Below are positions 19,096 to 50,815 of a stretch of DNA of 64,000 nucleotides, piece by piece (within the stretch, counting starts at the first letter, position 1; every line of letters starts with the position of its first letter). The position numbers were made by a program, and so were the translations under genes. Below the pieces are notes generated by a model. It made no database searches and was not told the DNA's origin. It worked only from the letters and a program-made list of their open reading frames with translations. The stretch comes from Vreelandella jeotgali Hwa (GTDB lineage: Bacteria > Pseudomonadota > Gammaproteobacteria > Pseudomonadales > Halomonadaceae), in NCBI RefSeq assembly GCF_000334215.1, contig NZ_AMQY01000011.1, forward strand, positions 124,001 through 188,000, read 5' to 3'.

Positions 19096-19668
19096 GTGAC
19101 AAGTTTAGCATCAAATCGCCGCCCGGCTCTGCCCGACTGGGCCGATGAACGCCTGGACGGTCTGGACGCCGCCGAGCTGCAGCAGGCGGCCCGCGAGCGG
19201 GTGGACGAAGCGTTCGCGCTGGCGCGGGAGGTTCACCCCGGGCTGCCGGTGCCGGGGGTCTGGTTTGACCTCAAGGGCGCTTCCGCCGGGCAGGCGCACC
19301 TGGGCCGCGGCGGGCTACGCCTGAACCCTGTATTGCTCGAAGAAAATCGGGCGGCCTTCTTTACCGACGTTATTCCCCACGAAATGGCGCACTGGCTGGT
19401 CTTCCATCTGGCCAACGGGCCACGCCTGAAACCCCACGGGCACGAATGGAAAACGGTCATGTGCGACCTCTTTGGCCTGCCGCCCCGGGTGACCCACCGC
19501 CTCGACGTGAGTCGTGCCCGGTCGGCGCCGTACTGCTATCGCTGCCGCTGTGGCGAGCATTATTTTACCCCGCAGCGGCATGCCCAGCGGCGCAAGGGAA
19601 GGCGCTATCGTTGTCGACAATGTGCTGATACCTTGGTCTATCATGGCCGCTTACCCGCCCAAAATTAA
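19096..19668 (+). CDS. sprT: SprT-family zinc metalloprotease-like protein
   Basis: A 190-residue SprT-like protein, relative of the eukaryotic DNA-protein crosslink protease Spartan; the bacterial role is not well established. The zinc-protease motif HEMAH is at residues 95-99, with a further His in HGHEWK. The C-terminal zinc ribbon is visible as YCYRCRCGEHYF followed by YRCRQCADTL, giving two CxC/CxxC pairs. The start is a GTG at 19096 with GGGGT upstream; no good ATG fits. The acs1 promoter region follows. Confidence 0.88.
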   Translation: MTSLASNRRPALPDWADERLDGLDAAELQQAARERVDEAFALAREVHPGLPVPGVWFDLKGASAGQAHLGRGGLRLNPVLLEENRAAFFTDVIPHEMAHWLVFHLANGPRLKPHGHEWKTVMCDLFGLPPRVTHRLDVSRARSAPYCYRCRCGEHYFTPQRHAQRRKGRRYRCRQCADTLVYHGRLPAQN

Positions 19669-19703
19669 CTGTAAGATACTGATTTTTAAAGATATTGTTT
19701 CGC

Positions 19704-19722
19704 TACCAATGTCTAAGATAAA
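19704..19722. promoter_or_regulatory. 19-nt element upstream of acs1, identical to one upstream of acs2
   Basis: TACCAATGTCTAAGATAAA occurs here and, without a single change, at 21915-21933. It ends 105 nt before the acs1 start; in acs2 the gap is 112 nt. The surrounding sequence is A/T-rich but otherwise not identical. Same element, same place, same kind of gene argues for a conserved activator site, plausibly for the nearby LuxR-type regulator. Confidence 0.7.
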
Positions 19723-19827
19723 CCCTGCCCGGGGAACGCTATGCTGGCCCGAGTCTAGAGCCTGAGACCGGCCCGCCGTCCGGCCGGCCGGTCTCACGAC
19801 AGCCAAGCCGCTATACGGAGAATCCCC

Positions 19828-21783
19828 ATGAGCGAACAACAACAGCAAGACGTTTATCCGGTGCGCGATGATATTGCGGCCCGTGCCTGGGCCGACAGCG
19901 AACGCTACGAGGCCATGTATCAGCGTTCGCTGGATGATCCCGATGGCTTCTGGGCGGAGCAGGCCCAACGGCTGGACTGGATCAGCCAGCCAACCCGCAT
20001 CAAGAACACCTCATTTGACCGCCATGACGTGGATATCCGCTGGTTCGAGGACGGTGAACTCAACGTGGCCGCCAACTGCCTGGACCGTCATCTGGAAAAG
20101 CGCGGTGACCAGACGGCGATCATCTGGGAAGGCGACGACCCCGCCGAATCGCGCCACATCAGCTACCGCGAGCTGTACGAACGCACCAACCAGCTGGCCA
20201 ATGCGCTCAAGGCGCAGGGCATCGGCAAGGGCGATACCGTGACCCTATACATGCCGATGATTCCCGAGACCACCATGGCGATGCTCGCCTGTGCACGCAT
20301 CGGAGCGGTACATTCGGTTATCTTTGGCGGCTTCTCGCCGGATGCCATCGCCCAGCGGGTGATTGGCGCGGAGTCCCGGCTGGTGATTACCGCCGACGAG
20401 TCGGTGCGCGGCGGCAAGCACGTGCCGCTCAAGGACAACGTGGACGCGGCGCTGACCCGCGACGGCACCGACGTGTGCGAGAGCGTGCTGGTGGTCAAGC
20501 GCACGGGCGGTGATATCGATTGGCACGATAGCCGCGATATCGACTTTGCCGATCTGGTCGACGGTCAGTCGGCGGAATGCCCCGCGGAAACCATGAACGC
20601 CGAAGACCCGCTGTTCATTCTCTACACGTCCGGCTCTACCGGCGCGCCCAAGGGGCTCAAGCACACCTCCGGCGGCTACCTGACCTATGTATCGCTGGCG
20701 CACCAGTACGTTTTTGATTACCGCGACGGTGAAGTTTTCTGGTGCACCGCCGACGTCGGCTGGATTACCGGACACAGCTTCGTGGTATATGGCCCGCTGG
20801 TGAACGGCGCAACCACGCTGATGTTCGAAGGCGTGCCGAACTATCCCACCGCCGGGCGGATGGGCGAGATTGTCGACAAGCACCAGGTCAATACGCTCTA
20901 CACCGCGCCGACCGCCATCCGCGCGCTTATGGCGCACGGCGACAGCGTCATGGATTCCAGCAGCCGAGACAGTCTGCGTCTGCTGGGCACGGCGGGTGAG
21001 CCGATCAACCCCGAAGCCTGGGAGTGGTTCCACCGCGTCATGGGCAACGAGCGCTGCCCGATTCTGGATACCTGGTGGCAGACCGAAACCGGCGCTGTGA
21101 TGATCGCGCCGCTGCCGGGTGCCATGTCGCTCAAGCCGGGGTCGGCGACCCGGCCGTTTTTTGGCGTTCGTCCGGCGATCATGGACAGCGCCGGCAACCG
21201 CCTTGAAGGCAAGGCCGAGGGCAACCTGGTGATTCTGGATTCCTGGCCAGGGCAGGCGCGTTCCATCTGGGGCAATCACGAGCGCTTCGTCACGACCTAT
21301 TTCTCGACGTACGAAGGCGTGTATTTCACCGGTGACGGCTGCCGCCGCGATGCCGACGGCGACTACTGGATCACCGGCCGCGTGGACGATGTGCTCAACG
21401 TGTCCGGTCACCGCATGGGCACCGCCGAGATCGAGTCGTCGCTGGTAGCGCACGACGCCGTAGCCGAAGCGGCGGTAGTGGGCTATCCCCACGACATCAA
21501 GGGGCAGGGCATCTATATCTACGTCACCCTGGCCGATACGGTGGAGCCCGGCGAGGCGCTCAAGAAGGAGCTGGCGCAACGAATGCGCCACGACCTGGGG
21601 GCCATCGCGGCGCCGGATATTATTCAGTGGGCGCCGGCACTGCCCAAAACGCGTTCGGGCAAGATCATGCGGCGCATTCTGCGCAAGATCGCCGCCAACG
21701 AGTGCGACGGTCTGGGCGATACCAGCACCCTGGCCGACCCGAGCGTGGTCGACGAGCTGATCGATCAGCGCGTCAACCGTTAG
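19828..21783 (+). CDS. acs: Acetyl-CoA synthetase, copy 1
   Basis: AMP-forming acetyl-CoA synthetase activates acetate to acetyl-CoA via acetyl-AMP; it is the high-affinity route for scavenging acetate. The protein has 651 residues, the standard length. Seen are the AMP-binding loop [11 protein letters not shown], the acetate-pocket segment DTWWQTETG, the hinge/A8 region [13 protein letters not shown] and the C-terminal [10 protein letters not shown], where Lys612 is the residue acetylated by Pat-type enzymes in the family. GGAGA lies before the ATG. A second, closely similar gene follows head to tail, probably by gene duplication. Confidence 0.97.
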
Positions 21784-21876: not shown

Positions 21877-21914
21877 GTTGATTTAAGCTATTGTTATTAA
21901 AATAAAAATCTTCA

Positions 21915-21933
21915 TACCAATGTCTAAGATAAA
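21915..21933. promoter_or_regulatory. 19-nt element upstream of acs2
   Basis: TACCAATGTCTAAGATAAA is the exact copy of the element at 19704-19722 and ends 112 nt before the acs2 start. It follows the hairpin that probably ends acs1, so acs2 likely has its own promoter under the same control. Confidence 0.7.
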
Positions 21934-22045: not shown

Positions 22046-23998
<1,953 letters not shown>

Positions 23999-24165: not shown

Positions 24166-24544
24166 CTGGGCTCATGGCTTCTGGCAGAAGGGTGTCATCG
24201 GACAGAAAATGCAGCGACTTTCCAGGCCTTGCTTGGGCATGACGAATACCTTGATGTACCATGATTCCCCGACGCTATATACGACAGAACCCTCTCGGCA
24301 GATGCCATCGCGACAGGCGCCGTAACCACGGCCGCCATGGCCTTCAGGATGGTAAGCAACGACGGTCATCGTACGCCAAAAAAGACAGTACCTTGCAGAT
24401 ACTGTGGCCAGGGACCAGGGCAATGGATCCGGTACAACAAGGCTGGCACGACGGAGCTATCGTAGAACATCAACCGACAACGAAAGAGCCGGGCGTTACG
24501 GCGGCGGGCTCTTGACGACTGCTCAAGGAATCGGAGGAGACCCC
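24166..24544. other. Intergenic region upstream of the response regulator
   Basis: With the preceding terminator and repeat this completes a 546-nt gene-free stretch. It holds an inverted repeat ACAGTA/TACTGT (24384-24389 and 24399-24404) and a longer GC-rich pair, AAGAGCC/GGCTCTT (24484-24490 and 24507-24513), close to the regulator start. GGAGGAG is the regulator's ribosome-binding site. I find no coding frame I would defend. Confidence 0.5.
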
Positions 24545-25207
24545 ATGGCTATCGCCCAGAAGTTTATCGTGGCTGACGACCACCCGCTGTTTCGCGCTGC
24601 ACTGACCCAGGCACTTCGCCAGCTGGCACCCCGGGCGGATATTGTCGAAGCCGACACCATGGAGGCCACCGCCGACGTCGTGAACCGACACCCCGACGCC
24701 GACCTGGTGCTGCTGGATTTGCACATGCCGGGGGCCAACGGCTTTTCCGGGCTGATTCAGCTACGCGGGCAGATGCCCGACATTCCGGTAGCGGTGATCT
24801 CGGGCAGCGACGAAGCCTACGTGGTACGCCGGGCACTCGACTACGGCGCGTCCGGATTTATCCCCAAGTCGTCGTCGTTGGCGCTGATTGCCGAAGCCGT
24901 CGGCGAAATTCTCGAAGGCGAAGTCTGGCTCCCCGAAGCGCTGGCCGGTGTGCTGGATGAAACCAACGAAGAAGAAGCGCACTTTGCCGAAGCCATTGCC
25001 TCGCTCACGCCCCAGCAGTTTCGCGTCCTCAACATGCTCACCGACGGCCTGCTCAACAAGCAGATCGCCTTTGAGCTGAACGTCTCCGAAGCCACCATCA
25101 AGGCGCACGTGACCGCGATTCTGCGCAAACTCGGGGTACATTCGCGCACCCAGGCGGTGATCGCGGCACAAAAACTCGAAGTCGAACCGCCCAGGGTCGA
25201 GTCCTGA
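24545..25207 (+). CDS. LuxR/NarL-family response regulator (CrbR/ErdR/AgmR-like)
   Basis: A 220-residue transcription regulator with an N-terminal receiver domain (about 5-125; acidic pocket ADDHP, phospho-acceptor Asp58 in LLDLHMPG) and a C-terminal LuxR helix-turn-helix (about 150-215; LTPQQFRVLNML, NKQIAFELNVSEATIKAHV). The ATG at 24545 follows GGAGGAG; the longer open frame upstream is non-coding. It converges on the symporter-fused histidine kinase and follows two acs genes. CrbR/ErdR-type regulators with such kinases activate acs in Vibrio and Pseudomonas. By context this is the acetate-switch regulator, and the shared 19-nt acs element is its best target candidate. Confidence 0.9.
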   Translation: MAIAQKFIVADDHPLFRAALTQALRQLAPRADIVEADTMEATADVVNRHPDADLVLLDLHMPGANGFSGLIQLRGQMPDIPVAVISGSDEAYVVRRALDYGASGFIPKSSSLALIAEAVGEILEGEVWLPEALAGVLDETNEEEAHFAEAIASLTPQQFRVLNMLTDGLLNKQIAFELNVSEATIKAHVTAILRKLGVHSRTQAVIAAQKLEVEPPRVES

Positions 25208-25240: not shown

Positions 25241-25300
25241 AGATATCCGGAGCTCAGGTATCCGGAGTTCAGGTATTCGGAATTCAGGTATTGGGAGTCT
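25241..25300. repeat. Tandem repeat, 4 x 15 nt, overlapping the kinase stop codon
   Basis: AGATATCCGGAGCTC, AGGTATCCGGAGTTC, AGGTATTCGGAATTC and AGGTATTGGGAGTCT fill 25241-25300. The kinase (minus strand) stops at 25284-25286, so the last unit and the stop codon are coding while the other units lie in the 3' region between the two convergent genes. Confidence 0.93.
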
Positions 25301-28300
25301 GGCGCTGGGCGCCCCGGCTGGCCTGTAGCGTCCGGCTGAGCAGGGCTCGCAGCGCTGCCGGCCGTACCGGCTTGAGCAATAGATGGTGCCCTTCGCGCTT
25401 GATCTCGTCGGCCACTTCCTCGCTGCGGTCGGCGGTGATCACAATGCCGGGCACCGCGCCCGCCAGACGCTCCGCGAGTGCTTCCAGCGCCATGAGTCCG
25501 GTCACGTCGTTACCCAGGTGGTAGTCGGCAAGAATCGCATCCGGGTCGCCGTCCATGTTGCGCAGGATCGATTTGGCGCCGCCGATACTGGTGGCGGTAA
25601 AGACTTCACAGCCCCAGCCCCCGAGCATGGCCGCCATGCCTTCCAGAATCAGCGATTCGTTGTCGATGCAGACGATGCGGGTGCCGGCCAGCCGGTTGCC
25701 GGCCCGGCGTTTGGGAGCCGGCGCCTGGTCGGCCTCGGCGCGGGCCCTGGCTACGGGCACGCTGACGCAGAAAACCGTGCCGGCGCCCTCCCGGGAGCGC
25801 ACGGTCAGCGGGTGTTCCAGCACCCGGCTCATGCGCTCGGCAATCGAGAGCCCGAGCCCCAGGCCTTTTTCGCTTTCGCTGTGGCGTGACACCTGATCCA
25901 GACGCCGAAACTCCTGAAAGATCTCGGCCTGTTTGGCCTCCGGAATCCCCGGGCCGGTATCCCACACCTCGATACGCAGCCGGTCGCCCGCGCGCCGGCA
26001 ACCCAGCAGAACCCGGCCTTCGCGGGTATAGCGTAGAGCGTTGGACAGAAAGTTCTGAATGATGCGGCGCAGCATCTGCGAATCCGAATCCACCCACTGG
26101 TCGGTGGGGATGACGGTCAGGTCCAGCCCGCGGTTTTCCGCCATGACCTCGAACTGGTCGCGTAGCGGACGCATGATATCCGCCAGGGCAAAGTCACTGC
26201 GTCGCGGTGTCAGCGCGCCGGCATCCAGCTTGGAAATGTCCAGCAGCGTGCCCAGCAGCTCTTCGGCCGATTGCAGGGAGTTGTCGATGTGGCCGATGGT
26301 GCCCTGCTGGCCGCTACTCGTGGCGTCATCCTGCATCAGCGCCGAGGTGAACAGGCGGGCGGCGTTGAGCGGCTGCAGCAGGTCGTGGCTGGCAGCGGCC
26401 AGAAAACGCGTCTTGGAAGCGTTGGCGTCTTCGGCGAGCTTCTTGGCCTGGCGCAGCGCCTGTTCGGCCTCGGCGCGTACCCGGTTTTCCTCGCGCAGCG
26501 CGGCGTTGGCGCGCGACAGGGCGCGGGTGCGTTCGTCAACGCGCTCTTCCAGGGTTTCGTTGGTTTCCTTGAGCGCAACCTCGGCCTGGCGGCGTTCGGT
26601 GATGTCCTGATACAGCGCGAAAAAGCCCAGAATCGTGTGGCTGTCATCGAAATGCGGCGTGTAGGTCACCAGCATGTGGCGCCGCTGGCCGTCCAGCGTC
26701 ATCGCCACCTCGAAGCTGACCCGCTCGCCGTTGAGCGTGCGTTTCACCCAGTCCCTGCGTTCATCCACTCTGCCGGGCGGCATGACGTCGTCGAAGCGCC
26801 GGCCGATAACCGCGTGGCGGTCGACGCCGAACGCTTCTTCGTAGGCGTGATTGGTAAACAGGTAGCGGCAGTCCTTGTCGAAATAGGCAATCAGCGCCGG
26901 TACGTTGTCGGTGTAGATGCGGATATTGTTTTCCGAACGGATCAGCGCTTCTTCCACGCGTTTCTGCTGGCTGACGTCCTGGTAGGTATAGACAAAGCCG
27001 CCGCCGGGCATCGGATTGCCCTGGACTTCCAGCACGCTGCCGTCCTGGCGGTAGCGCACGTAGCGGTGCGGCTGGCCCTCGCGAATATTGTTGACCAGCA
27101 GTTCGACGTGCTCTTCGGGGTCGCCGGGGCCGTATTCGCCGCTGTGGGCGTTATAGCGGAAGATACGGTCAATCGGCGTTCCGACGCGAATCAGGTGGTC
27201 GGGGAAGTGAAACAGCTCCAGGTAGCGCTGGTTCCAGACCACCAGACGCAGGTTCTGATCCACCACGCCGATGCCCTGGTTGATGTTTTCCAGCGTGGCC
27301 TGCAGCAGCGCGCGATTGAATTCGAGCACCTGAGAGGCTTCATCGACAATCGAAATAACGTCGGAAATCCCGATGCCGCGCCCCTGTAGCGCCGAGTTGA
27401 CCACAATTCGCGCCGAGGAGGCGCCCAGCACCGAGGCCAGAAAGCGTTCGGTGAACTGGATCACATCGATAGAGGCGCGGGCGTCGCCGGCAAGCGGCGT
27501 GCCATGACGCCGGGCATAGTTGCCGAAGGCCCGCTCGACCTGCCTGGCGCTCAGAAAGCGTTCGCAGAGTGCCTTGAGGTCATTCACCGTGGTGGCGCCC
27601 GTCCAGGGGCGATTGATCGAGGTCTGGCGGGTTTCCACGCTGTCGACGAACAGCGAGGCCTGAATGCGCTCGACAACGCGCTGGGAGCTCAGCTGGGAAA
27701 TGAAGATATAGCAGAACAGGTTCAGCCCCAGCGACAGCATGACGCCGTGGGTAAAGGCATCGCCAACGTGCAGGCCAAACAGCGCCGTCGGTGCGAGCCA
27801 GTCGATGCCCAGCGGCCCCTGGGCGACCCAGCTGCCGGGCAGCACTCCGGCATTGCCCAGCGCCGGGCCCAGCAGGCTATAGGCCCAGATGCCGAACCCG
27901 ACCACCAGGCCGACCATCACTCCCAGCCAGTTGCCGCGCTTCCAATAGAGCCCGCCGAGTAGCGCAGGTGCCAGCTGGGCCGCGGCGGCAAACGACAGCA
28001 TGCCAATGGAGGCCAGCGAGCTGAACTCGGCCAGCATGCGGTAAAAACCGTAGGCCAGGGCCAGCACGGCAACGATGGTCAGGCGTCTGACGCGCAGGAC
28101 CAGGCGGCCATAATCGCGGTTCTGGCTGTCAAACCAGCGCAGGCGAAACAGGGCGGGGATGACGATTTCGTTGGAAATCATGATCGACACCGCCAGGGTC
28201 GCAACCAGCACCATGCTGGTCGATGCCGAAAAGCCGCCGATAAAGGTCAGCAGTGTCAGCCAGTCGTGGCCGGTGGCCATGGAAAGCGCGAGTACATAGG

Positions 28301-29243
28301 CGTCCGGCTCGATATCGGTGGCGCCAAAAAGCCATAGCCCCGCCGCCGCCAGCGGCACAACAAAAAAGGCCACAATGAACAGATAGAGCGGGAACAGCCA
28401 GCGCGCACGGCGCGCGTCGTCGGGGTGAATGTTTTCGACCACGGCGACGTGAAACTGGCGCGGCAGGCAGAATACCGCCAGCATGGCCAGCAGCGTCTGC
28501 GCCCAGAAACTCTGGCCGATACGCTGGTTGGTCAGCTGGCTTTTCAGCTCCAGCTGGCTATTGGCATAGGTGGCCAGCTCGCCCAGGCCGTCAAACATGC
28601 CCCAGGTGACTACCGCGCCGAGAATCAGGAAAGCCGCCAGCTTGATCACCGATTCAAACGCCACGGCATGGATCAGGCCTTCGTGGTGCTCGGTGGCGTC
28701 GGTGTGACGGGTGCCGAACAGAATGGCAAACAGGGCCATGACGCCGGCGATGTAAAACGCCGTATCGCTGAACAGCGGCGCATGAGAGGTGCCGGCTTCG
28801 CCGGTCAGGATACTGAAGGAAGAGGCCACTGCCTTCAGCTGTAGCGCAATGTAGGGCAGCGTACCGACCAGCGCAATCAGGCTGGCGAGTACCGCCAGCG
28901 ACTGCGCCTTGCCGTACCTTGAGGCGATGAAATCCGCAATGGAGGTAATGTTCTGGTGCTTGGCCACACGAATCATCTTGGCGAGCACGGGCCAGAACAG
29001 CAGGAAGGTGAGGATCGGGCCGACAAAGATGCTGGCAAACGACCAGCCCGAGGTCGCCGCCTGCCCGACGGCGCCGTAAAACGTCCAGGAGGTGCAGTAA
29101 ATCGCCAGCGCCAGGCTGTAGATCAGCGGTCGTCTGCGGCTGGCGCCGTGGGTATGTGCCCGACGGTCGCCATACCATGCAATGCTGAACAGCACGGCAA
29201 TATAGGTCAGTGAGACCGCGACAAGTAGCCCTGCGTAAAACAT
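25284..29243 (-). CDS. Hybrid sensor histidine kinase fused to a Na+/solute-symporter domain (CrbS/MxtR-like)
   Basis: A 1319-residue membrane sensor. Residues 1 to about 500 form an SSS-type symporter domain with about 13 helices, followed by a linker with a STAC-like part. Two PAS domains (about 650-750 and 790-880) and a coiled coil precede the kinase core with phospho-acceptor His953 (AAASHDLLQPLN), the N box NFLSNALRY and GLGLGLSI. The C-terminal receiver has Asp1240 in LADYHLG. The ATG at 29243 (AGGAG upstream) is preferred over an adjacent TTG. Homologous CrbS/MxtR kinases sense acetate-related signals; whether the symporter part transports or only senses is unknown. Convergent with its likely partner regulator. 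Confidence 0.93.
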   Translation of the reverse strand: MFYAGLLVAVSLTYIAVLFSIAWYGDRRAHTHGASRRRPLIYSLALAIYCTSWTFYGAVGQAATSGWSFASIFVGPILTFLLFWPVLAKMIRVAKHQNITSIADFIASRYGKAQSLAVLASLIALVGTLPYIALQLKAVASSFSILTGEAGTSHAPLFSDTAFYIAGVMALFAILFGTRHTDATEHHEGLIHAVAFESVIKLAAFLILGAVVTWGMFDGLGELATYANSQLELKSQLTNQRIGQSFWAQTLLAMLAVFCLPRQFHVAVVENIHPDDARRARWLFPLYLFIVAFFVVPLAAAGLWLFGATDIEPDAYVLALSMATGHDWLTLLTFIGGFSASTSMVLVATLAVSIMISNEIVIPALFRLRWFDSQNRDYGRLVLRVRRLTIVAVLALAYGFYRMLAEFSSLASIGMLSFAAAAQLAPALLGGLYWKRGNWLGVMVGLVVGFGIWAYSLLGPALGNAGVLPGSWVAQGPLGIDWLAPTALFGLHVGDAFTHGVMLSLGLNLFCYIFISQLSSQRVVERIQASLFVDSVETRQTSINRPWTGATTVNDLKALCERFLSARQVERAFGNYARRHGTPLAGDARASIDVIQFTERFLASVLGASSARIVVNSALQGRGIGISDVISIVDEASQVLEFNRALLQATLENINQGIGVVDQNLRLVVWNQRYLELFHFPDHLIRVGTPIDRIFRYNAHSGEYGPGDPEEHVELLVNNIREGQPHRYVRYRQDGSVLEVQGNPMPGGGFVYTYQDVSQQKRVEEALIRSENNIRIYTDNVPALIAYFDKDCRYLFTNHAYEEAFGVDRHAVIGRRFDDVMPPGRVDERRDWVKRTLNGERVSFEVAMTLDGQRRHMLVTYTPHFDDSHTILGFFALYQDITERRQAEVALKETNETLEERVDERTRALSRANAALREENRVRAEAEQALRQAKKLAEDANASKTRFLAAASHDLLQPLNAARLFTSALMQDDATSSGQQGTIGHIDNSLQSAEELLGTLLDISKLDAGALTPRRSDFALADIMRPLRDQFEVMAENRGLDLTVIPTDQWVDSDSQMLRRIIQNFLSNALRYTREGRVLLGCRRAGDRLRIEVWDTGPGIPEAKQAEIFQEFRRLDQVSRHSESEKGLGLGLSIAERMSRVLEHPLTVRSREGAGTVFCVSVPVARARAEADQAPAPKRRAGNRLAGTRIVCIDNESLILEGMAAMLGGWGCEVFTATSIGGAKSILRNMDGDPDAILADYHLGNDVTGLMALEALAERLAGAVPGIVITADRSEEVADEIKREGHHLLLKPVRPAALRALLSRTLQASRGAQRQTPNT

Positions 29244-29347
29244 CAAACGCTCCTGCCTGGACGCGTGACAAGCAGCCCGAACCCGGTCGCGACAATGCCC
29301 GTTTCAAGCGCCGGGAGCATGGTCGTCAGGGCGGCTCGGGCGGCGGT

Positions 29348-29872
29348 TTATATCTCCTGGCCCGGCTGACAGGCGGTGAGGTAGAGCCTGGCGTCGTCGC
29401 GCAGGGTGCGTAGCTGGTCAACCGCGGGTTTGCCGCTGTCCTCGTCCAGGGGAACCAGACCCCGGTTATCGCAGTTGATCAGATACGGCGTCGGCGTCAC
29501 GACGTCGGCGTAGTGGCGTTCAAAATGGTAGATGATCAGCTCGGCAACGGTGGTGTTATCGCGGCTTTGACGCTCGATATCGTCGCGGTCCACCACGCTG
29601 AACTCGGTCACCATGGGAAAAATGAAGGTCCAGGGGCGCCAGATGGCGCTGTCCGTCTGGCTCGACAGCACGATGGTGCTGTCCGGTAGCTGCTGCTTTT
29701 TGTGTTCAAACCAGCTGTATTCCGCGTTGACCTGGTAGCCCAGCATGCCAAGCCCGGCGCAGACCGGTACGATCCACCTGGGTAGGCGCTGGCCGCTTAG
29801 TTTGCGCAGTATAAGGCCGATGCCGGCGGCGGCAAGGCCCGAGAAAACAGCGGCGACGAGATGCCAGATCAT
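29348..29872 (-). CDS. Membrane-anchored protein of unknown function next to the sensor kinase
   Basis: I do not recognise this 174-residue protein. It has two N-terminal membrane helices (about 1-22 and 33-47) separated by a basic turn (LRKLSGQRLPRW), then a soluble region of about 125 residues. Notable are a WRPWTFIFP segment, an acidic/arginine stretch (DRDDIERQSRD), and two cysteines near the C-terminus (NCDNRG, TACQPG). GAGGA lies 7 nt before the ATG. It lies 104 nt upstream of the kinase on the same strand and could be co-transcribed. A role as an accessory of the sensor is only a guess from position. Confidence 0.75.
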   Translation of the reverse strand: MIWHLVAAVFSGLAAAGIGLILRKLSGQRLPRWIVPVCAGLGMLGYQVNAEYSWFEHKKQQLPDSTIVLSSQTDSAIWRPWTFIFPMVTEFSVVDRDDIERQSRDNTTVAELIIYHFERHYADVVTPTPYLINCDNRGLVPLDEDSGKPAVDQLRTLRDDARLYLTACQPGQEI

Positions 29873-30107: not shown

Positions 30108-31922
30108 TCAGTGATTCAGTGCCGCGTTGCTGTGCGGTGCGTTGCCGGCCCCTTTCGGGTAGCGAACGCTTTCCACCAGCTCCTGGATTTCCTGCGGCGG
30201 CTCGGCAGTCGCGTTGGCTACCGTGAAGGCAACCGCAAAGTTGAGCATCGCGCCGAGAGCACCAAAGGACTGCGGAGAAATGCCGAATAGCCAGTTTTCC
30301 GGCGTATTGGCCAGCATGTTGGTGCCGGGGATGAAGAACCAGCCCAGGTAGGTGAAGATATACAGCAGCGTGGTCAGCAGACCGACCAGCATGCCCGCCA
30401 CAGCGCCGCGGTTGTTGATGCGCTTGGAGAAGATACCCATCATCAGTACCGGGAACAGCGAGGCACCGGCGATACCGAAGGCCAGCGCCACGGTCTGCGC
30501 GGCAAACCCGGGCGGATTAAGCCCCAGATAAGTCGCCAGCAGAATGGCAAAGGCCATCGATATGCGGGCTGCCAGCATTTCGCCTTTTTCGGTAATATTC
30601 GGGTTGATCGTGTTCTTGATCAGGTCGTGACTGACCGCCGACGAGATGGCCAGCAGCAAACCGGCAGCAGTCGAGAGGGCAGCGGCCACACCGCCGGCGG
30701 CGATCAGGCCGATCACCCAGGGCGGCAGGTTGGCAATCTCGGGGTTGGCCAGTACCAGGATGTCATTGTTGACGGACAGTTCGTTACCTTCCCAACCGCG
30801 TTTTTCGGCCGTGTCGGCAAAGGCAGCGCTGTCGTCGTTGTACATCTGGATACGGTCGTCGCCGTTCTTGTCCTCGAACTGGATCAGGCCGGTGTGCTCC
30901 CAGGAACGAATCCAGCCGGGACGATCTTCATAGCGGATGGGGTTCTGCGCCGCCTTGTCGTAATTCTCGGTCTGGGTGGCCATGTCGGGATAGACAGTGG
31001 TCAGCAGATTGAGGCGCGCCATGGAACCCACGGCCGGTGCCGTCACGTACAGCAGCGCGATAAACACCAGCGCCCAGCCGGCTGACCAGCGTGCGTCAGC
31101 AACCTTGGGAACGGTGAAAAAGCGGATGATAACGTGCGGGAGACCGGCGGTACCCACCATCAGCGACAGGGTAAACAGCACCATGTTGAGCTTGTTGTCC
31201 ACGCCACCGGTGTAGGCGCCAAAGCCCAGCGCGGTCACCACCTGGTCCAGCTTGTCGAGCAGCGGCACGCCGGATTCGGTGTGAGTGCTGAACATGCCGA
31301 ACATGGGGATCGGGTTACCGGTCAGGTGCATGGCGATGAAGATGGCCGGGATGGTGTAGGCAATGATCAGTACGATGTACTGCGCCACCTGGGTATAGGT
31401 GATGCCTTTCATGCCGCCAAAGACCGCGTAGAGGAAGACAATCAGCGCGGCAATCCAGATGCCGGCCGTATTGGAGACTTCCAGAAAGCGCGAAAAGGCC
31501 ACGCCGGCACCGGTCATCTGGCCGATGACGTAGGTCACCGAGGCGACGATCAGGCAGACAACGGCAATCAGGCGCGCCGTATCGCTATAGAAACGATCGC
31601 CGATAAAGGCCGGCACGGTGAACTTGCCGAATTTGCGCAGGTAGGGGGCCAGCAGCATGGCCAGCAGCACGTAGCCACCGGTCCAGCCCATCAGGTAGGT
31701 CGAGTTGGCATAGCCGCCGGCCGCCAGCAGACCCGCCATGGAAATAAACGAGGCCGCCGACATCCAGTCCGCCGCCGTGGCCATACCGTTGGTGATGGGG
31801 TGTACCCCGCCGCCCGCGACGTAAAAGTCCTTGGTGGAACCGGCGCGCGCCCAGACGGCAATACCGATGTACAGCGCAAAGGATGCGCCGACAAAAAGCA
31901 GGTTGATGATGAACTGATCCAT
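30108..31922 (-). CDS. actP: Sodium:solute symporter, acetate permease ActP-type (VC_2705 family)
   Basis: A 604-residue inner-membrane Na+-coupled symporter of the SSS family. About 13 hydrophobic helices are visible; signature segments are DFYVAGGGV, ATAADWMSAASFI, VFGGMKGITYTQ and GTAGLPHVIIRFF. It belongs to the subfamily that is always paired with a small DUF4212 subunit, here encoded 6 nt upstream. The hydrophilic insertion at about 300-400, with an acidic DKNGDDRIQ stretch, is typical of that subfamily. Acetate (or a related carboxylate) is the likely substrate because of the acs genes and sensor nearby. Other monocarboxylates cannot be excluded. Confidence 0.88.
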   Translation of the reverse strand: MDQFIINLLFVGASFALYIGIAVWARAGSTKDFYVAGGGVHPITNGMATAADWMSAASFISMAGLLAAGGYANSTYLMGWTGGYVLLAMLLAPYLRKFGKFTVPAFIGDRFYSDTARLIAVVCLIVASVTYVIGQMTGAGVAFSRFLEVSNTAGIWIAALIVFLYAVFGGMKGITYTQVAQYIVLIIAYTIPAIFIAMHLTGNPIPMFGMFSTHTESGVPLLDKLDQVVTALGFGAYTGGVDNKLNMVLFTLSLMVGTAGLPHVIIRFFTVPKVADARWSAGWALVFIALLYVTAPAVGSMARLNLLTTVYPDMATQTENYDKAAQNPIRYEDRPGWIRSWEHTGLIQFEDKNGDDRIQMYNDDSAAFADTAEKRGWEGNELSVNNDILVLANPEIANLPPWVIGLIAAGGVAAALSTAAGLLLAISSAVSHDLIKNTINPNITEKGEMLAARISMAFAILLATYLGLNPPGFAAQTVALAFGIAGASLFPVLMMGIFSKRINNRGAVAGMLVGLLTTLLYIFTYLGWFFIPGTNMLANTPENWLFGISPQSFGALGAMLNFAVAFTVANATAEPPQEIQELVESVRYPKGAGNAPHSNAALNH

Positions 31923-31928
31923 ACTGAC

Positions 31929-32189
31929 TTACTCCCCGAGGCTGTATTTGGCGTCGAGCTGGTTCATCTTCCAGGCATAGAAGAAAGTCAGCGCGATGAA
32001 GGTCAGAATGGAGCCCTGTTGGGCAAACCAGAAACCGAGGTCCGTACCGCCCACGGGGATTCCCGCCAGCAGCGGGCGAAACAGCATGGCACAGCCATAC
32101 GACACGAATGCCCAGACCACCAGGCACCCGAGTATGGTCCGCACGTTGGATTTCCAGTATTCAGCAGCGTTGGAAGTATCATCTGCCAT
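31929..32189 (-). CDS. DUF4212 small subunit of the sodium:solute symporter
   Basis: An 86-residue membrane protein with two helices (about 18-38 and 52-72) and the short N-terminal NAAEYWKSNVRTIL motif typical of DUF4212. Family members are invariably next to VC_2705-type symporters and are thought to be their second subunit. Six bases separate its stop from the symporter start. It begins the operon; its upstream region is 428 nt long and A/T-rich around 32330-32380. Confidence 0.88.
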   Translation of the reverse strand: MADDTSNAAEYWKSNVRTILGCLVVWAFVSYGCAMLFRPLLAGIPVGGTDLGFWFAQQGSILTFIALTFFYAWKMNQLDAKYSLGE

Positions 32190-32617
32190 AGCGTTGCTCT
32201 CCGCTTGTGTTTATAAGGTTAGGAGACTGCATCAGTGAAACATTAAGCATCATGCGGCCGTTCACTAGGCAAGCAGCTTTGCGTTGAATTGCTCTGGCAC
32301 GATGGCCCTACATGACGTTTTTCATATTGGCTAAAAAAAACCAAAAATAAATCAAGACTTTAGTATTGAAACCAAGGTATCAGCCGCGTCAGGCCGGGGT
32401 TACGTCGACTCCACGGGGCTATCGTGGTTGGCCATGCCCGAAGTGACGGGGAGAGGTCCCCTGCGGCAATGATGCGACGACGAGCACCTTATGACGGATA
32501 AGGAGCACTTTTTTGACGATAGTATAGATGTCGACACGGCCGGTGGCGCCGATACTTTGCAATGCAGCAATGCCAAACAGCAATATCAAACAACAACGCC
32601 AACTTGCCGAGGTCCCC
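32190..32617. other. Divergent control region of the symporter and nucleotidyltransferase genes
   Basis: This 428-nt region includes an A/T-rich tract (32320-32370) and, at 32366-32383, a sequence resembling the acs element: GAAACCAAGGTATCAG on the plus strand shares ACCAAnGTnTnAG with TACCAATGTCTAAG. It may hold the binding site of the same regulator, but the match is degenerate. GAGGT at 32609-32613 serves the nucleotidyltransferase start. No gene is apparent. Confidence 0.5.
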
Positions 32618-34429
32618 ATGGTCGAAGTCGACTTGTCCCACCCGCCTTTTTCGTTACTGGACGCATCCGGCCTGGAGCGTGCCCGACAGGGTCTGGAAGC
32701 GGCGCATTTCGAGAGCGGCGATATCATTCTGGATACTGGTGAGACAGGCAGCTACCTGTTTCTGATCCAGCAGGGAGAGGTGGCCGAAGTGGACCCGACC
32801 CTGCCGGCCGCCACGGCGCGTATCGGGCTTTACACCGTTGGGGATCTGTTTGGTGCCATCAGCATGATCAACGGCCACAGCCGCTATCGCTTTATCGCCG
32901 AGCAGGATTGCCTCTGCTACCGGTTGCCCCGGGCGCTTTTCCGGCAGCTGTGCCAGGCCTGCCCCGAGTTCGATGACTTTTTCCGCCAGACGCTGGCCAA
33001 CAAGGCGCACCGCCTGATGGAGAAACGCACCGAAGGCGGGGTGACCATGGCCGGCTTTATGCTGGCGCAGGTGAGCGAGTGCATGCGCGCGCCGCAGCGC
33101 ACCCGGGCCGATGCCGACATTGCCGACGCAGTTCGCCAGCTCAACGCCAGCCATGACGATAGCCTGCTGGTCGGCGATGAGCAGGCCCTGGGCATGGTGA
33201 CCAAGACCGACCTGCTCAATGCACTGGTCATTCAGCAGCTGGATCAGCAAAGCCCGATTGGCGACATCGCCCGCTATCAACTGGTGACCGTCTCTCCCGG
33301 CCAGTACCTGTTCGAGGCGCTGGTATTGATGACGCGGCACAAGGTCTCGCGTGTGGTGGTCATGGACGGTTCCCGGCTGGCGGGCGTGGTCGAGCTGACC
33401 GATGTGCTGAGCTATTTTTCCAGCCGCAGTTACGTGGTCAGCCTCCAGGTCGAACAGGCAGACGACCTGGAAACGCTGGCCGATGCCAGCCACCGCACGC
33501 CTGAGCTGGTGAGTGCGCTGATGGCGCAGGGCGTCAAGCTGCGCTTTGCCATGGAGCTTCTGGCGGCGCTCAACGGCCGTATCATCCACAAGGCCTGGGA
33601 ATTCTGTGTAGACGCCCGCTATCACGGCGAGAGCTGCCTGATGGTCATGGGCAGCGAAGGGCGCGGCGAGCAGATTCTCAAAACCGACCAGGATAACGGC
33701 GTCATACTCGAGGATACGCTGGAATGGCCGGACATGAGCACGACCATGCAGCAGCTGACCGATACGCTGGTCAGGCTGGGGTATCCGCCCTGTCCGGGGA
33801 ATATCATGGTCTCCAACCCGGAGTGGGTAGGCAGCGTCAGCCAGTGGCAGGCGCGTATCCAGCGCTGGGTCGCGGCCCAGGACGGCGATAGCCTGATGAA
33901 GCTCGCGATCATGCTCGATGCCCACGTGGTCGCGGGTAATCCCACGCTGCTTGAGCGCGTGCGCCAGACTCTGTTCGACCACTGCGCCAGCGATGATCTG
34001 CTGCTGGCCGACTTTGCCCGGGCGGCGCTGCGCTTTTCGACGCCGCTGACACTGTTCGGCTCGCTGAAAAAGCCCCAGCACGGTATCGATATCAAGAAGG
34101 GCGGGATCTTTCCCATTGTCCACGGCGTACGCACCATGGCGCTCGAGCGTCGCATCACCGCGACGTCGACCTTTGATCGCCTGGATGCGCTGGTGGAAGA
34201 CGGCCGTCTCAAACGCGGGTTCGCCGACGACGTGGGCGAAGCGCTGGCGCTGTTCACCGAACTTCGGCTCAAGCGCCAGCTGGAAGCCACCACGGCGGAG
34301 GACAGCCGGGATCGCGTGGTCGTGCAGGCCCTGTCGTCTCTGGAGCGAGACCTACTGCGCGAGGCCCTGCATATCGTCAAGGATCTCAAGCAGCGTCTGT
34401 CGCACCGTTACCATCTTGAATATGCCTGA
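32618..34429 (+). CDS. cNMP-binding / CBS / DUF294 putative nucleotidyltransferase
   Basis: A 603-residue cytosolic multidomain protein. An N-terminal cyclic-nucleotide-binding-like domain (about 10-125) is followed by two CBS motifs (about 155-275). A DUF294 nucleotidyltransferase core has the metal-site motif GSEGRGEQ at 345-352 and TDQDN just after, and an all-helical DUF294 C-terminal domain closes the protein. The ATG at 32618 is chosen for GAGGT upstream; in-frame ATGs lie at 32528 and 32570. In Pseudomonas similar genes sit near acetate symporters, often with a DnaQ-like exonuclease, which is missing here. The target is unknown; GlnD-like protein nucleotidylylation is a possibility. 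Confidence 0.85.
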   Translation: MVEVDLSHPPFSLLDASGLERARQGLEAAHFESGDIILDTGETGSYLFLIQQGEVAEVDPTLPAATARIGLYTVGDLFGAISMINGHSRYRFIAEQDCLCYRLPRALFRQLCQACPEFDDFFRQTLANKAHRLMEKRTEGGVTMAGFMLAQVSECMRAPQRTRADADIADAVRQLNASHDDSLLVGDEQALGMVTKTDLLNALVIQQLDQQSPIGDIARYQLVTVSPGQYLFEALVLMTRHKVSRVVVMDGSRLAGVVELTDVLSYFSSRSYVVSLQVEQADDLETLADASHRTPELVSALMAQGVKLRFAMELLAALNGRIIHKAWEFCVDARYHGESCLMVMGSEGRGEQILKTDQDNGVILEDTLEWPDMSTTMQQLTDTLVRLGYPPCPGNIMVSNPEWVGSVSQWQARIQRWVAAQDGDSLMKLAIMLDAHVVAGNPTLLERVRQTLFDHCASDDLLLADFARAALRFSTPLTLFGSLKKPQHGIDIKKGGIFPIVHGVRTMALERRITATSTFDRLDALVEDGRLKRGFADDVGEALALFTELRLKRQLEATTAEDSRDRVVVQALSSLERDLLREALHIVKDLKQRLSHRYHLEYA

Positions 34430-34591
34430 TGCTGTGGGTCGGCCCGGATTTTCCGGTTCTCGACGGCTCTGCTGGCTTGCAGCGATAAAGGTTGGTGGAG
34501 ACGCGCCGGCTGTTGTTACAATACCGGCCTGCCATGCTGTCATGGCAGCCTAGTGACCATCGCCTTTTCCGACTGATGACGCCGACCTTTC

Positions 34592-47920: not shown

Positions 47921-47996
47921 GGGTGGTTAGCTCAGTTGGGAGAGCACCAGCCTTACAAGCTGGGGGTCACTGGTTCGAACCCAGTACCACCCACCA
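47921..47996 (+). tRNA. tRNA-Val (anticodon UAC)
   Basis: A 76-nt cloverleaf with acceptor stem GGGTGGT/ACCACCC, anticodon loop CTTACAA, T loop TTCGAAC and encoded CCA. Identical to the copy at 48356. Confidence 0.97.
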
Positions 47997-48139
47997 TACA
48001 AGCGTTATTCAACATTCAACGCTGTGTGGCCAAGCTATCGCGTTGAACGGATAGCGTCCGTTCGCCAGGCAGAAAGCATGCTCATATGCCGACAGGCGCA
48101 GCGACGCATGTGAAAAGGATATGCCGCATTGCATTGTGT

Positions 48140-48216
48140 GGACCGGTAGTTCAGTTGGTTAGAATGCCGGCCTGTCACGCCGGAGGTCGCGAGTTCGAGT
48201 CTCGTCCGGTCCGCCA
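48140..48216 (+). tRNA. tRNA-Asp (anticodon GUC)
   Basis: A 77-nt cloverleaf with acceptor stem GGACCGG/CCGGTCC, anticodon loop CTGTCAC and encoded CCA. First of three identical copies. Confidence 0.97.
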
Positions 48217-48256
48217 GCGCCAATGCCGCATTAAGCCTTTACCCCGTTACTTGAGT

Positions 48257-48333
48257 GGACCGGTAGTTCAGTTGGTTAGAATGCCGGCCTGTCACGCCGG
48301 AGGTCGCGAGTTCGAGTCTCGTCCGGTCCGCCA
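48257..48333 (+). tRNA. tRNA-Asp (anticodon GUC), copy 2
   Basis: A 77-nt gene identical to the one at 48140, 40 nt downstream of it, again with encoded CCA. Confidence 0.97.
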
Positions 48334-48355
48334 CGGTAACACCCCGCTTTATCGT

Positions 48356-48431
48356 GGGTGGTTAGCTCAGTTGGGAGAGCACCAGCCTTACAAGCTGGGG
48401 GTCACTGGTTCGAACCCAGTACCACCCACCA
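48356..48431 (+). tRNA. tRNA-Val (anticodon UAC), copy 2
   Basis: A 76-nt gene identical to the one at 47921. It lies 22 nt after the second tRNA-Asp. Confidence 0.97.
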
Positions 48432-48545
48432 CGTCAGGTTTGAAGACTTCGCTGTTGACTCGGCTGGAGGGAATACCCCCAGGCATGAGCCACGGTATTT
48501 GCACGCTGACGCGCTGCATACTGTCTTCATCCACGGCTTTACAGC

Positions 48546-48622
48546 GGACCGGTAGTTCAGTTGGTTAGAATGCCGGCCTGTCACGCCGGAGGTCGCGAGT
48601 TCGAGTCTCGTCCGGTCCGCCA
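48546..48622 (+). tRNA. tRNA-Asp (anticodon GUC), copy 3
   Basis: A 77-nt gene identical to the other two tRNA-Asp genes. It follows a 114-nt spacer and closes the cluster; a degenerate pyrimidine-rich repeat starts about 20 nt later. Confidence 0.97.
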
Positions 48623-49000: not shown

Positions 49001-49402
49001 CTAGGGCAGTGCGTTGATACCGGCTTCGGCAATTCGGGTGTCCTGATCGGGTTTGACCCCGGAAACCCCTACGCCGCCTACCACGCTGTCGTCGATCACA
49101 ATGGGCACGCCGCCGGCCAGCAGGCCCTTGAGCGGCGCCGACAGAAACGCTGTGCGGCCGTTGTTGATCATGTCTTCAAACACCTGGGTTTTCTTGTGGC
49201 CAACGGCGGCATTGCGCGCCTTGTGGGTCGCGGCTTCGGCGGTGAACGGCGCGGTGCCGTCGAGCCGACGTAGCGCCAGCAGGTGGCCGCCGTCATCGGT
49301 GATGGCGATGGTAACGTCCCAGCTCTGCCGGTTGGCCTCAAGCTGGGCAGCGTCCAGCACCTGGTCAACGTCGGCCTGCGTCAGGATGACTTTGGTTTGC
49401 AT
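49001..49402 (-). CDS. glcG: GlcG/HbpS-family (DUF336) protein
   Basis: A 133-residue DUF336 protein, the family of GlcG in the E. coli glycolate operon and of the heme-binding HbpS. The fold is seen in VTIAITDDGGHLLALRRLDG, a Lys/Ala-rich helix (ATHKARNAAV) and GGVPIVIDDSVVGGVGVSG. The ATG at 49402 follows AAGGA. It is downstream of glcF but beyond a terminator, so it may be read through or have its own promoter. The biochemical role in glycolate use is not known. Confidence 0.87.
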   Translation of the reverse strand: MQTKVILTQADVDQVLDAAQLEANRQSWDVTIAITDDGGHLLALRRLDGTAPFTAEAATHKARNAAVGHKKTQVFEDMINNGRTAFLSAPLKGLLAGGVPIVIDDSVVGGVGVSGVKPDQDTRIAEAGINALP

Positions 49403-49526
49403 GGTTGGGTCCTTTTTGAGGTGCATTTTTTTGTTGAAACGTTGTAGGGATGCACGGACGAGCACGACGTCGGGCGGAGGGTTGCCGCGAATGCGGGGAC
49501 GCTGCAAGCGGCAGGTGCCCACCCAT

Positions 49527-49582: not shown

Positions 49583-50815
49583 TTATACCAAGGTATCATC
49601 CACCACTTCAATCCAGTGGCGCACCGGCGTGCGGTTGGCGCCGGCCAGGTGGGTCTGACAGCCGATGTTGGCGGTGACGATCAGCTCGGGATTGTCCGCT
49701 TCCAGGGCGTCGAGCTTTTGATCGCGGAGCTGGTTGGCGAGGCCGGGCTGGGTAATCGCGTAGGTCCCCGCCGAGCCGCAGCACAGGTGGGCATCGCGCA
49801 CCGGCGCCAGCGAGAATCCCAGCGTGGAGAGGACGTTTTCCACGGCGCCGCCCAGCTGCTGTGCATGCTGCAGCGTACACGGGCATTGAAACGCCAGATG
49901 CCGGTCGTCCTTGAGTGTGAGCTGGTCAAGCGGCGCGTCGCGCAGTACCTCGACAAGATCCCGGGCCATGTGGCTGATGGTTTGTGCGCGGTCGGCGTAG
50001 GCCGGGTCGTGCTTGAGCATGTCGCCATAGTCCTTGACGAAGGCGCCGCATCCGCTGGCGGTCTGCACAATCGCTTCGGCGCCCTGCTCCACGTAGGGCC
50101 ACCAGGCATCGATATTGGCGCGCATGCGCTCGCGGGCCTGTTCCTGGGCATTGAGGTGAAAGTCAATGGCACCGCAGCAGCCCGCTTCCGTAACCGGAGT
50201 GACGCTGATGCCCAGGCGATCCAGCACGCGCGCCGTAGCGGCGTTGGTATTGGGTGAAAGCGCCGGCTGCACGCAGCCTTCGAGCATCAGCACCCGCCGC
50301 GAATGCCGGTCGGCAGCGGGCCTTTGGCCGGCATCCACCGGGGCCGGCGGCATTTTATCGCGCAGCGTACCGGGGACCAGCGGTGTAAATGTCTGTCCCA
50401 GCCGCAGCAGTGCCTGAAAGCGGGCGGGGTTGACCAGCATCCGGCGCAGCCCGTAGCGCATCAGGCGTTCCGCTGCCGGGCGCGGGGCGCGCCGCTCGAT
50501 TTCAGCGCGGCCGATATTGAGCAGCTTGTGGTATTCCACTCCCGACGGGCAGGTTGTTTCGCAGTTCAGACAGGTCAGGCAGCGGTCCAGATGCAGGCGC
50601 GTTTCTTCGGTCGTGACGTTGTCGTCATCGGGGCTTTCGAGCAGCTCCTTCATCAAGTAGATGCGCCCGCGGGGGCCGTCGCGCTCGTCGCCCAGCAGCT
50701 GGTAGGTCGGGCAGGTAGCGTTGCAAAAGCCGCAGTGAACGCAGGCGCGCAGCACTTCGTCGGCTTCCTGAATGTGGGGTTTCTGGCGATCGGCATCGCT
50801 AAAGTGCGTTTGCAT
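49583..50815 (-). CDS. glcF: Glycolate oxidase iron-sulfur subunit GlcF
   Basis: GlcF passes electrons from the GlcDE flavoproteins to the quinone pool. The protein has 410 residues, as in E. coli (407). Two [4Fe-4S] ferredoxin motifs are near the N-terminus, CVHCGFCNATCP and CLTCLNCETTCPSG. Two CCG-type domains follow, with GCCGAIDFH and CCGSAGTYA. GGAGG precedes the ATG. Third gene of glcDEF, 15 nt after glcE. Confidence 0.96.
   Translation of the reverse strand: MQTHFSDADRQKPHIQEADEVLRACVHCGFCNATCPTYQLLGDERDGPRGRIYLMKELLESPDDDNVTTEETRLHLDRCLTCLNCETTCPSGVEYHKLLNIGRAEIERRAPRPAAERLMRYGLRRMLVNPARFQALLRLGQTFTPLVPGTLRDKMPPAPVDAGQRPAADRHSRRVLMLEGCVQPALSPNTNAATARVLDRLGISVTPVTEAGCCGAIDFHLNAQEQARERMRANIDAWWPYVEQGAEAIVQTASGCGAFVKDYGDMLKHDPAYADRAQTISHMARDLVEVLRDAPLDQLTLKDDRHLAFQCPCTLQHAQQLGGAVENVLSTLGFSLAPVRDAHLCCGSAGTYAITQPGLANQLRDQKLDALEADNPELIVTANIGCQTHLAGANRTPVRHWIEVVDDTLV

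Follow-up and report, generated by a model that had tools for sequence, protein, structure and literature searches.

A handful of soluble enzymes and signalling proteins are known to undergo covalent nucleotidylation. GlnE, which has two transferase units of the kind considered here, and DrrA both lack cyclic nucleotide-binding (cNMP) and CBS domains; GlnD, the PII uridylyltransferase/uridylyl-removing enzyme, is a sensor-controlled transferase with HD and ACT domains that is opposed by phosphodiesterase activity, and the CBS protein AcuB has no transferase. Here we analyze a 64,000-nucleotide stretch of the Vreelandella jeotgali Hwa genome (the window), in which a 603-residue protein encoded at 32618..34429 (+) joins a cNMP-like domain, a CBS pair, a nucleotidyltransferase and a DUF294_C domain. 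It has the CBS pair in common with AcuB and a sensor-controlled transferase in common with GlnD, although the opposing activity here would belong to a separate DEDDh exonuclease protein, and it has in common with GlnE and DrrA (PDB 3k7d, 1v4a, 6yx5) the predicted fold of the whole catalytic half and a Pol-beta-type active site, at 13-17% identity. We propose, with moderate confidence, that this DUF294 protein is an adenine-nucleotide-sensing protein nucleotidylyltransferase dedicated to the adjoining sodium symporter, and that the exonuclease that accompanies its relatives is its antagonist.

The nearest described counterparts are Pseudomonas PFLU5625 and PP_0354, CrbR/ErdR targets which, from the available portions of PMC5715377, PMC8402216 and PMC9927547, have the same domain architecture and the same regulon logic as the window gene. 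PP_0354 neighbours the exonuclease PP_0353, unlike the window gene, and the accessible text of PMC5715377 already proposes nucleotidylation in response to cAMP or other signals for PFLU5625. The P. aeruginosa cluster PA3232-PA3235 contains a protein of the window's own clade (clade A, below) with about 38% identity to it, but pairs it with an ActP/DUF485 symporter and an exonuclease rather than with the VC_2705/DUF4212 symporter found here without one; a plasmid-borne P. aeruginosa copy has the order DUF485, ActP, DUF294, exonuclease, and by this gene order PA3233 would be the clade A gene. Excerpts of PMC9765439 report that the cluster rises about 16-fold in the proteome on propionate, and that PA3233-PA3235 transcripts dropped 2-fold once propionate had been added. 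Already known are the domain family, its membership of the CrbR/ErdR regulon, the exonuclease and actP neighbours in Pseudomonas and the general idea of nucleotidylation. We found neither a pairing of DUF294 clades with SSS and BCCT transporters nor repeated exonuclease inactivation beside DUF294 in the open-licence PMC literature, and both are apparently unreported; the same literature yielded no paper on DUF294 together with an exonuclease, none on DUF4212, and for BCCT a single listed title, a comparison of halotolerance.

The reading frame at 32618..34429 is real, intact and conserved. Its protein is matched at E 1e-116 or better in 82 of 82 genomes of the genus, a few of the matches being fragments or interrupted, which argues against a chance frame, and the closest named relatives, at up to 77% identity, belong to Vreelandella (formerly Halomonas) in the Halomonadaceae. 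The frame is already open from 32528, yet the ATG at 32618 is the better start, since an AGG lies five bases upstream and alignment with relatives agrees, whereas the ATG at 32528 abuts a predicted CrbR site. Pfam scores for cNMP_binding (48.7 bits), CBS (60.9), DUF294 (PF03445, 140.4) and DUF294_C (PF10335, 143) all exceed the curated cut-offs, which places the protein in the DUF294 family of cNMP-CBS-nucleotidyltransferases and confirms the multidomain architecture of the original prediction, made from the letters of the DNA. The same scan gave these four families only, with neither the HD nor the ACT domain of GlnD.

The catalytic half comprises the DUF294 nucleotidyltransferase domain (33494..33883, +; residues 293-422), with the active site running from GSEGRGEQ to TDQDN (33650-33697; residues 345-352 and 356-360), a third catalytic aspartate, Asp434 (33917-33919), just past that domain, and the helical DUF294_C domain (34001..34411, +; residues 462-598). 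G345, S346, R349, E351, D357, D359 and D434 of the Pol-beta-type site are all present, so that the transferase core was rightly described as intact in its GSxxRxEQ and TDQDN motifs. None of these seven positions is altered in the 88 closest clade A proteins (600 bits or more), and they are nearly always intact in clades A and B alike; four loci (L083, L085-L087) are unreadable at the active site in the 137-locus local alignment and were read in a separate one. A model of the C-terminal half built from 28 sequences (pLDDT 85.9, pTM 0.86) has as its top fold match the adenylylation domain of E. coli GlnE (Z 25.0, 3.2 Å, 291 residues), nearly tied with DrrA (Z 24.6) and the GlnE deadenylylation domain (Z 23.9). 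These matches cover 291-299 residues and are separated by a large gap from the best other match over both domains, an aminoglycoside nucleotidyltransferase (Z 9.1). As modelled, then, the catalytic and helical domains share the fold of GlnE/DrrA-like protein adenylyltransferases, and fold and active site together point to nucleotide transfer onto a protein. GlnD is not among the structure matches listed, which is no evidence against kinship. A sequence search of solved structures places its best stretches solely on the cNMP and CBS regions and none on the transferase half, among the matches listed (60 of 93 from phmmer and 60 of 390 from hmmsearch with a 19-row profile). DUF294_C belongs to the HEPN clan, and a toxin-antitoxin reading was dropped because, by the available text of PMC3710099, members of this family do not conserve the HEPN motif.

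The two sensor domains fare differently. In the cNMP_binding-type domain (32705..32959, +; residues 30-114), Ala80 occupies what we take to be the ribose-binding glutamate position of the phosphate-binding cassette, the arginine position of which is Arg89. This glutamate is found in 0 of 133 alignable clade A proteins and in 4 of 43 from clade B; cAMP sensing is therefore rejected as the default reading, and the domain may be a structural part or a sensor of something other than cAMP. The CBS pair (33095..33421, +; about residues 160-268), of which the Pfam profile scores the second repeat alone, carries the adenosine signature G-h-h-T-x-x-D in its first repeat (GMVTKTD), with Thr195 kept in all 133 alignable clade A proteins and Asp198 in 130 of them. 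In the second repeat Asp262 is kept in 126 of 133, and the window has a glutamate where the signature has threonine. A structure prediction of the whole protein reached pLDDT 81.5 and pTM 0.69. The solved CBS pairs that match the modelled one include AcuB with bound AMP, ADP, ATP or Ap4A (PDB 9s4w-9s52), at about 24-31% identity. Of the two sensing functions originally predicted, adenosine sensing through the CBS pair is thus plausible, and cyclic-nucleotide sensing is not supported.

Divergent from the gene, as the original prediction had it, lie the DUF4212 small subunit (31929..32189, -; TIGR03647) and the large subunit (30108..31922, -; TIGR03648, 817.9 bits) of a VC_2705-family sodium:solute symporter (SSS). 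We find DUF294 matches at E 0.001, weak ones included, in 134 of 194 genomes of the order, the strong scores separating into clade A, to which the window's protein belongs (identities from 36% upwards), and clade B, more distant at 23-29% and itself split into main and divergent groups by a cut of 500 bits to the second copy of this genome; 80 loci from the order and 80 named clade A loci were taken in. An SLC5-type protein lies within 6 kb in 113 of 119 clade A loci (109 with an SSS symporter, four with CrbS alone), a set in which at least four genomes are present twice, in 10 of 14 divergent clade B loci and in 3 of 29 from main clade B. Among the 80 named clade A loci, all 80 have a symporter match in their flanks, which reaches at least 300 bits in 79, and DUF4212 is matched in 77; the gene is thus co-conserved with the symporter, one of the two points on which the original prediction had been staked in advance. 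Tyr11-Trp12 of DUF4212 recurs in 120 of 121 distinct sequences, the other being gapped, and could be a target site, a count that is not used in the argument here.

Main clade B keeps different company: a BCCT transporter lies no more than 1 kb away in 20 of its 29 loci (one of the 29 being on a 4-kb contig), but in none of 39 clade A and none of 14 divergent clade B loci; the BCCT identity was confirmed by Pfam in two main clade B examples. The window's genome holds a second full DUF294 gene, 27% identical to the first, with a BCCT transporter at a distance of 0.8 kb. This copy forms a pair (L004, 6039-8692) with an exonuclease gene that follows it and whose product has glutamate for the motif II aspartate, as in most of main clade B. 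SSS and BCCT proteins have the LeuT fold and sodium coupling in common. The DUF294 link is therefore to sodium symporters in general, not to acetate, since the paralogous clade adjoins BCCT betaine-type transporters. Of the acetate link originally suggested, the divergent symporter cluster stands, while acetyl-CoA synthetase (Acs) becomes a less likely target.

The association extends beyond the order. DUF294 is matched at E 1e-20 in 94 of 249 genomes of the phylum, relatives of the order included, and in 40 out-group loci hand-picked down the ranking (several short matches and near-duplicates being skipped), an SLC5-type or BCCT protein lies within 5 kb in 34 (32 and 2, respectively) and within 1 kb in 24; an exonuclease profile match is present in all 40, some of the matching frames overlapping the DUF294 frame. 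In nine annotated plasmid records, a tenth and unannotated one being set aside, the small and large symporter subunits lie directly upstream of DUF294 in seven, and eight have an exonuclease in range, by annotation or by a Pfam match, Skermanella being the exception. Two Paracoccus plasmid records have a histidine kinase downstream, and the one tested gives a borderline SSF match (22.7 bits; cut-off 22.8). One Pseudomonas linyingensis locus (L226, 5956-10782) carries clade A and clade B DUF294 genes on opposite strands of one symporter locus, with a single exonuclease behind the clade B gene.

The usual exonuclease partner is missing from the window locus, as was noticed at the outset: only 162 bases (34430..34591) separate the DUF294 stop codon from ttcA, where relatives carry the DEDDh exonuclease, and this gap holds no exonuclease profile match. 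The pair is otherwise the rule, with an exonuclease adjacent in 78 of the 82 DUF294 loci examined in the order, catalytic residues having been lost in two of the 78. These calls were made by profile, as single-sequence phmmer misses many, and they include one exonuclease that lies in a long overlapping frame (L119). Of 137 distinct clade A loci, 76 have an exonuclease with all five catalytic residues, 45 have one with changes among them and 16 lack the gene; L131, counted with the 16, cannot be judged because the stretch ends 226 bases past the DUF294 gene; L226 is counted as absent, its nearby exonuclease being on the other strand behind the clade B gene. The exonuclease is altered or not found in all 30 other genomes of the genus that were examined (of 81) and in eight Vreelandella-named loci, and Halomonas and Billgrantia species have lost different exonuclease residues. 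On a tree of 88 proteins, all with intact transferase residues, the exonuclease state changes at least 9 times, a figure that serves as a guide only, as the tree was built quickly and has 26 weak forks. Judged from these alignments, the exonuclease has been repeatedly inactivated in the Halomonadaceae and is gone at this locus, with the transferase site intact.

The altered exonucleases nevertheless remain long open frames. Their median ratio of nonsynonymous to synonymous substitution (dN/dS) is 0.082 over 40 pairs, with 5 of 40 at 0.5 or more, and that of their DUF294 neighbours is 0.047; 40 pairs of intact exonucleases give a median of 0.272, with 3 of 40 at 0.5 or more, and 0.244 for the DUF294 neighbours, all of these values coming from pairs that are not independent and have synonymous sites near saturation. 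Long open frames under purifying selection suggest that the altered exonucleases are probably kept as non-catalytic partners. A division of functions between copies is seen in one genus (g5), three genomes of which have two clade A copies each: one copy has an intact transferase and no exonuclease, and in the other the transferase TDQDN has become GPLDY beside an intact exonuclease. These loci (L063, L064 and L066, and L075-L077) represent one evolutionary event, not three.

We envisage that transcription of DUF294 and the symporter is raised by a CrbS/CrbR-type system during the use of acetate or other monocarboxylates, that the CBS pair then reads adenine nucleotides, and that the GlnE-like catalytic half modifies the symporter, its small subunit or an SLC5-type relative with a nucleotide, for which AMP is the likeliest candidate. 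This modification would tune sodium-coupled uptake up or down with energy state, so that the switch probably acts on the pump and not on acetate metabolism as such. Among targets the symporter is the most likely, because a sodium symporter, or a kinase with an SLC5 domain, follows the gene across clades, operon types and classes, and with the symporter as target the exonuclease would be the natural antagonist: in most bacteria the adjoining DEDDh protein would oppose the transferase, plausibly by phosphodiester cleavage. In Vreelandella, where the catalytic residues of this partner are lost or, in this genome, its gene is lacking at the locus, its role could be taken by reversal by the transferase itself, or by dilution. 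GlnE itself reverses its modification. Computation shows the domains, the intact active site, the predicted fold, the linkage, the regulatory motif and the loss of the exonuclease; the nucleotide, the target, the direction of the effect and the role of eraser are inferred. The phenotypes in the accessible part of PMC9927547 agree with an antagonist pair: P. putida grows more slowly on pyruvate when it lacks the exonuclease gene pp_0353, as it does when it lacks actP-I, but not when it lacks pp_0354, as would be the case if loss of the eraser left the symporter off and loss of the writer left it free.

Several points weigh against this proposal. We found no biochemical data on any DUF294-family member in open PMC papers, and in the available text the pflu5625 mutant is without phenotype (PMC5715377), as is the pp_0354 deletion on acetate or pyruvate (PMC9927547). 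Judged by primers, pflu5625 falls outside clade A, and there is no SLC5-type protein within 6 kb of its relatives L119 and L121. In a comparison of seven loci, four of them clade A, the first rapid amplification of cDNA ends (RACE) primer for pflu5625 (24 bases) has one mismatch in L121, four in L119 and six or more in the five other loci, and the second (21 bases) has three in L121, one in L119 and seven or more in the others; the two deletion primers, which complete the four primers tested, fit well at none of the seven. PFLU5625 thus falls in the divergent clade B subgroup, the RACE primers fitting its members, and the gene deleted in PMC5715377 is therefore a paralogue of the window's kind, its relatives not lying beside a symporter as the window gene does. 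Decay of the exonuclease in 45 of 137 loci and its absence from 16 are hard to square with an indispensable eraser, barring another means of reversal. The chance level of the linkage is only a rough estimate, a few per cent, from the handful of SSS-like genes per genome. The expected transporter is missing from the 5 kb around DUF294 in 6 of 40 out-group loci, and BCCT from the nearest 1 kb in 9 of 29 loci of main clade B. Neighbourhood is in any case no proof of a physical target, as co-regulation with uptake would also explain the linkage.

Other activities for the pair must be weighed against this evidence. The transferase might add nucleotides to RNA 3' ends that the exonuclease trims, and so adjust the mRNA for transporters or for the metabolism of acetate and pyruvate; nucleic acids are the usual substrates of DEDDh exonucleases. 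The authors of PMC9927547 indeed suggest mRNA decay for pp_0353 in the text available, but the fold is far closer to protein adenylyltransferases (Z 24-25), terminal uridylyltransferases appearing only at Foldseek E above 0.2, and the linkage tracks transporter protein families rather than one pathway, which together make action on RNA unlikely. A soluble nucleotide product is less probable still. Here the transferase would make a small nucleotide signal and the exonuclease degrade it, as oligoribonuclease does with linear dinucleotides, and it is true that one module holds two nucleotide-type sensor domains and a nuclease partner, and that HalB-type oligoadenylate synthases appear weakly in the fold search (Z 6.5-6.9). 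These lie far below GlnE and DrrA, however, and when all neighbours were clustered in 28 loci of main clade B, the exonuclease (26) and BCCT (21) were the sole families present in more than seven, with no separate receptor standing out; we regard such a signal as improbable.

A different protein target is conceivable, in that modification of Acs or of CrbS/CrbR would make acetate activation, not uptake, track energy state. Both lie within the same cluster, and the clade A copies L075-L077 stand beside CrbS and Acs with no symporter in range. Against this, Acs is found within 6 kb in just 3 of 119 clade A loci, many of which end before reaching it, and the paralogous clade adjoins BCCT transporters and has no visible link to acetate, which leaves an acetate-pathway target rather improbable. 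Finally, the DUF294 protein could sense energy state and regulate the symporter as one of its subunits, without catalysis. Three clade A proteins have lost TDQDN and are still retained, and the retention under selection of exonucleases without catalytic residues makes non-catalytic roles likely in the module; with the seven catalytic positions intact in 88 of 88 close relatives and nearly always intact in both clades, we give a purely regulatory DUF294 protein very little credence.

Returning to modification of the symporter, we raise only tentatively its extension to a general rule, in which DUF294 and the DEDDh exonuclease would form a post-translational writer/eraser switch for LeuT-fold sodium symporters across the Pseudomonadota, with a separate transporter family for each paralogous clade (SSS together with DUF4212 or DUF485, or else BCCT) and the eraser repeatedly becoming a pseudoenzyme or being lost in the Halomonadaceae. 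If true, sodium-coupled transporters would have a writer/eraser pair of their own, and with it many bacteria a new level at which the uptake of nutrients and osmolytes is controlled. A common protein family would thereby gain a function, none having been found in print for it in the open-licence PMC literature. It would also recast a puzzling phenotype, in which the exonuclease mutant behaves like the symporter mutant and the transferase mutant does not, as a question of epistasis.

In the same cluster, a CrbS/MxtR-like hybrid histidine kinase (25284..29246, -) is identified by its kinase domains; its SLC5-like N-terminal part is not matched by Pfam SSF and contains a weak TIGR03648 match (22.9 bits). 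A CrbR/ErdR-like LuxR-type response regulator (24404..25207, +) scores 264.9 bits with the ErdR model, below the cut-off of 390, and Acs is encoded at 22046..23998 (+). Between CrbS and the symporter lies a 174-residue protein (29348..29872, -) without a Pfam or NCBIfam match; it is kept there in nearly all Halomonadaceae loci read that far and is a possible partner of the symporter or the kinase.

Predicted CrbR/ACTU sites were ranked over all 17-mers on both strands of the window with a weight matrix from the 12 sites printed in the available part of PMC5715377, predicted and tested sites being mixed. The divergent region holds the second-ranked match, nearer DUF4212 (32352..32368, -), and the third, nearer the DUF294 gene (32511..32527, -), so that by this matrix the promoter carries the sequence mark of the CrbR/ErdR regulon; the site upstream of acs (21912-21928, +) ranks fifth. 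By contrast, the one-mismatch consensus gives 3 sites in the window versus 3.73 expected, with none in the divergent promoter region. Among related loci, the divergent region beats chance in 42 of 52, defined as at most 2 of 40 dinucleotide shuffles being as good, the window itself falling outside the 52 through a filter on frame start. In same-strand operons the promoter before DUF4212 beats chance in 23 of 32, and the operon-internal region before DUF294, a negative control, does so in 3 of 33.

The top matrix match of the window lies elsewhere, at 49583-49599, between genes at 49583-50815 (-) and 49001-49522 (-), which we take to encode a glycolate-oxidase iron-sulfur-type protein and a small GlcG/HbpS-like protein, respectively, hinting at CrbR control of two-carbon metabolism beyond acetate. 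Further ACTU-like sites at 19626-19642 and 19701-19717 lie upstream of a second Acs-like frame (19759-21780) beside acs, and a five-tRNA array, Val-Asp-Asp-Val-Asp, occupies 47921-48622 (+).

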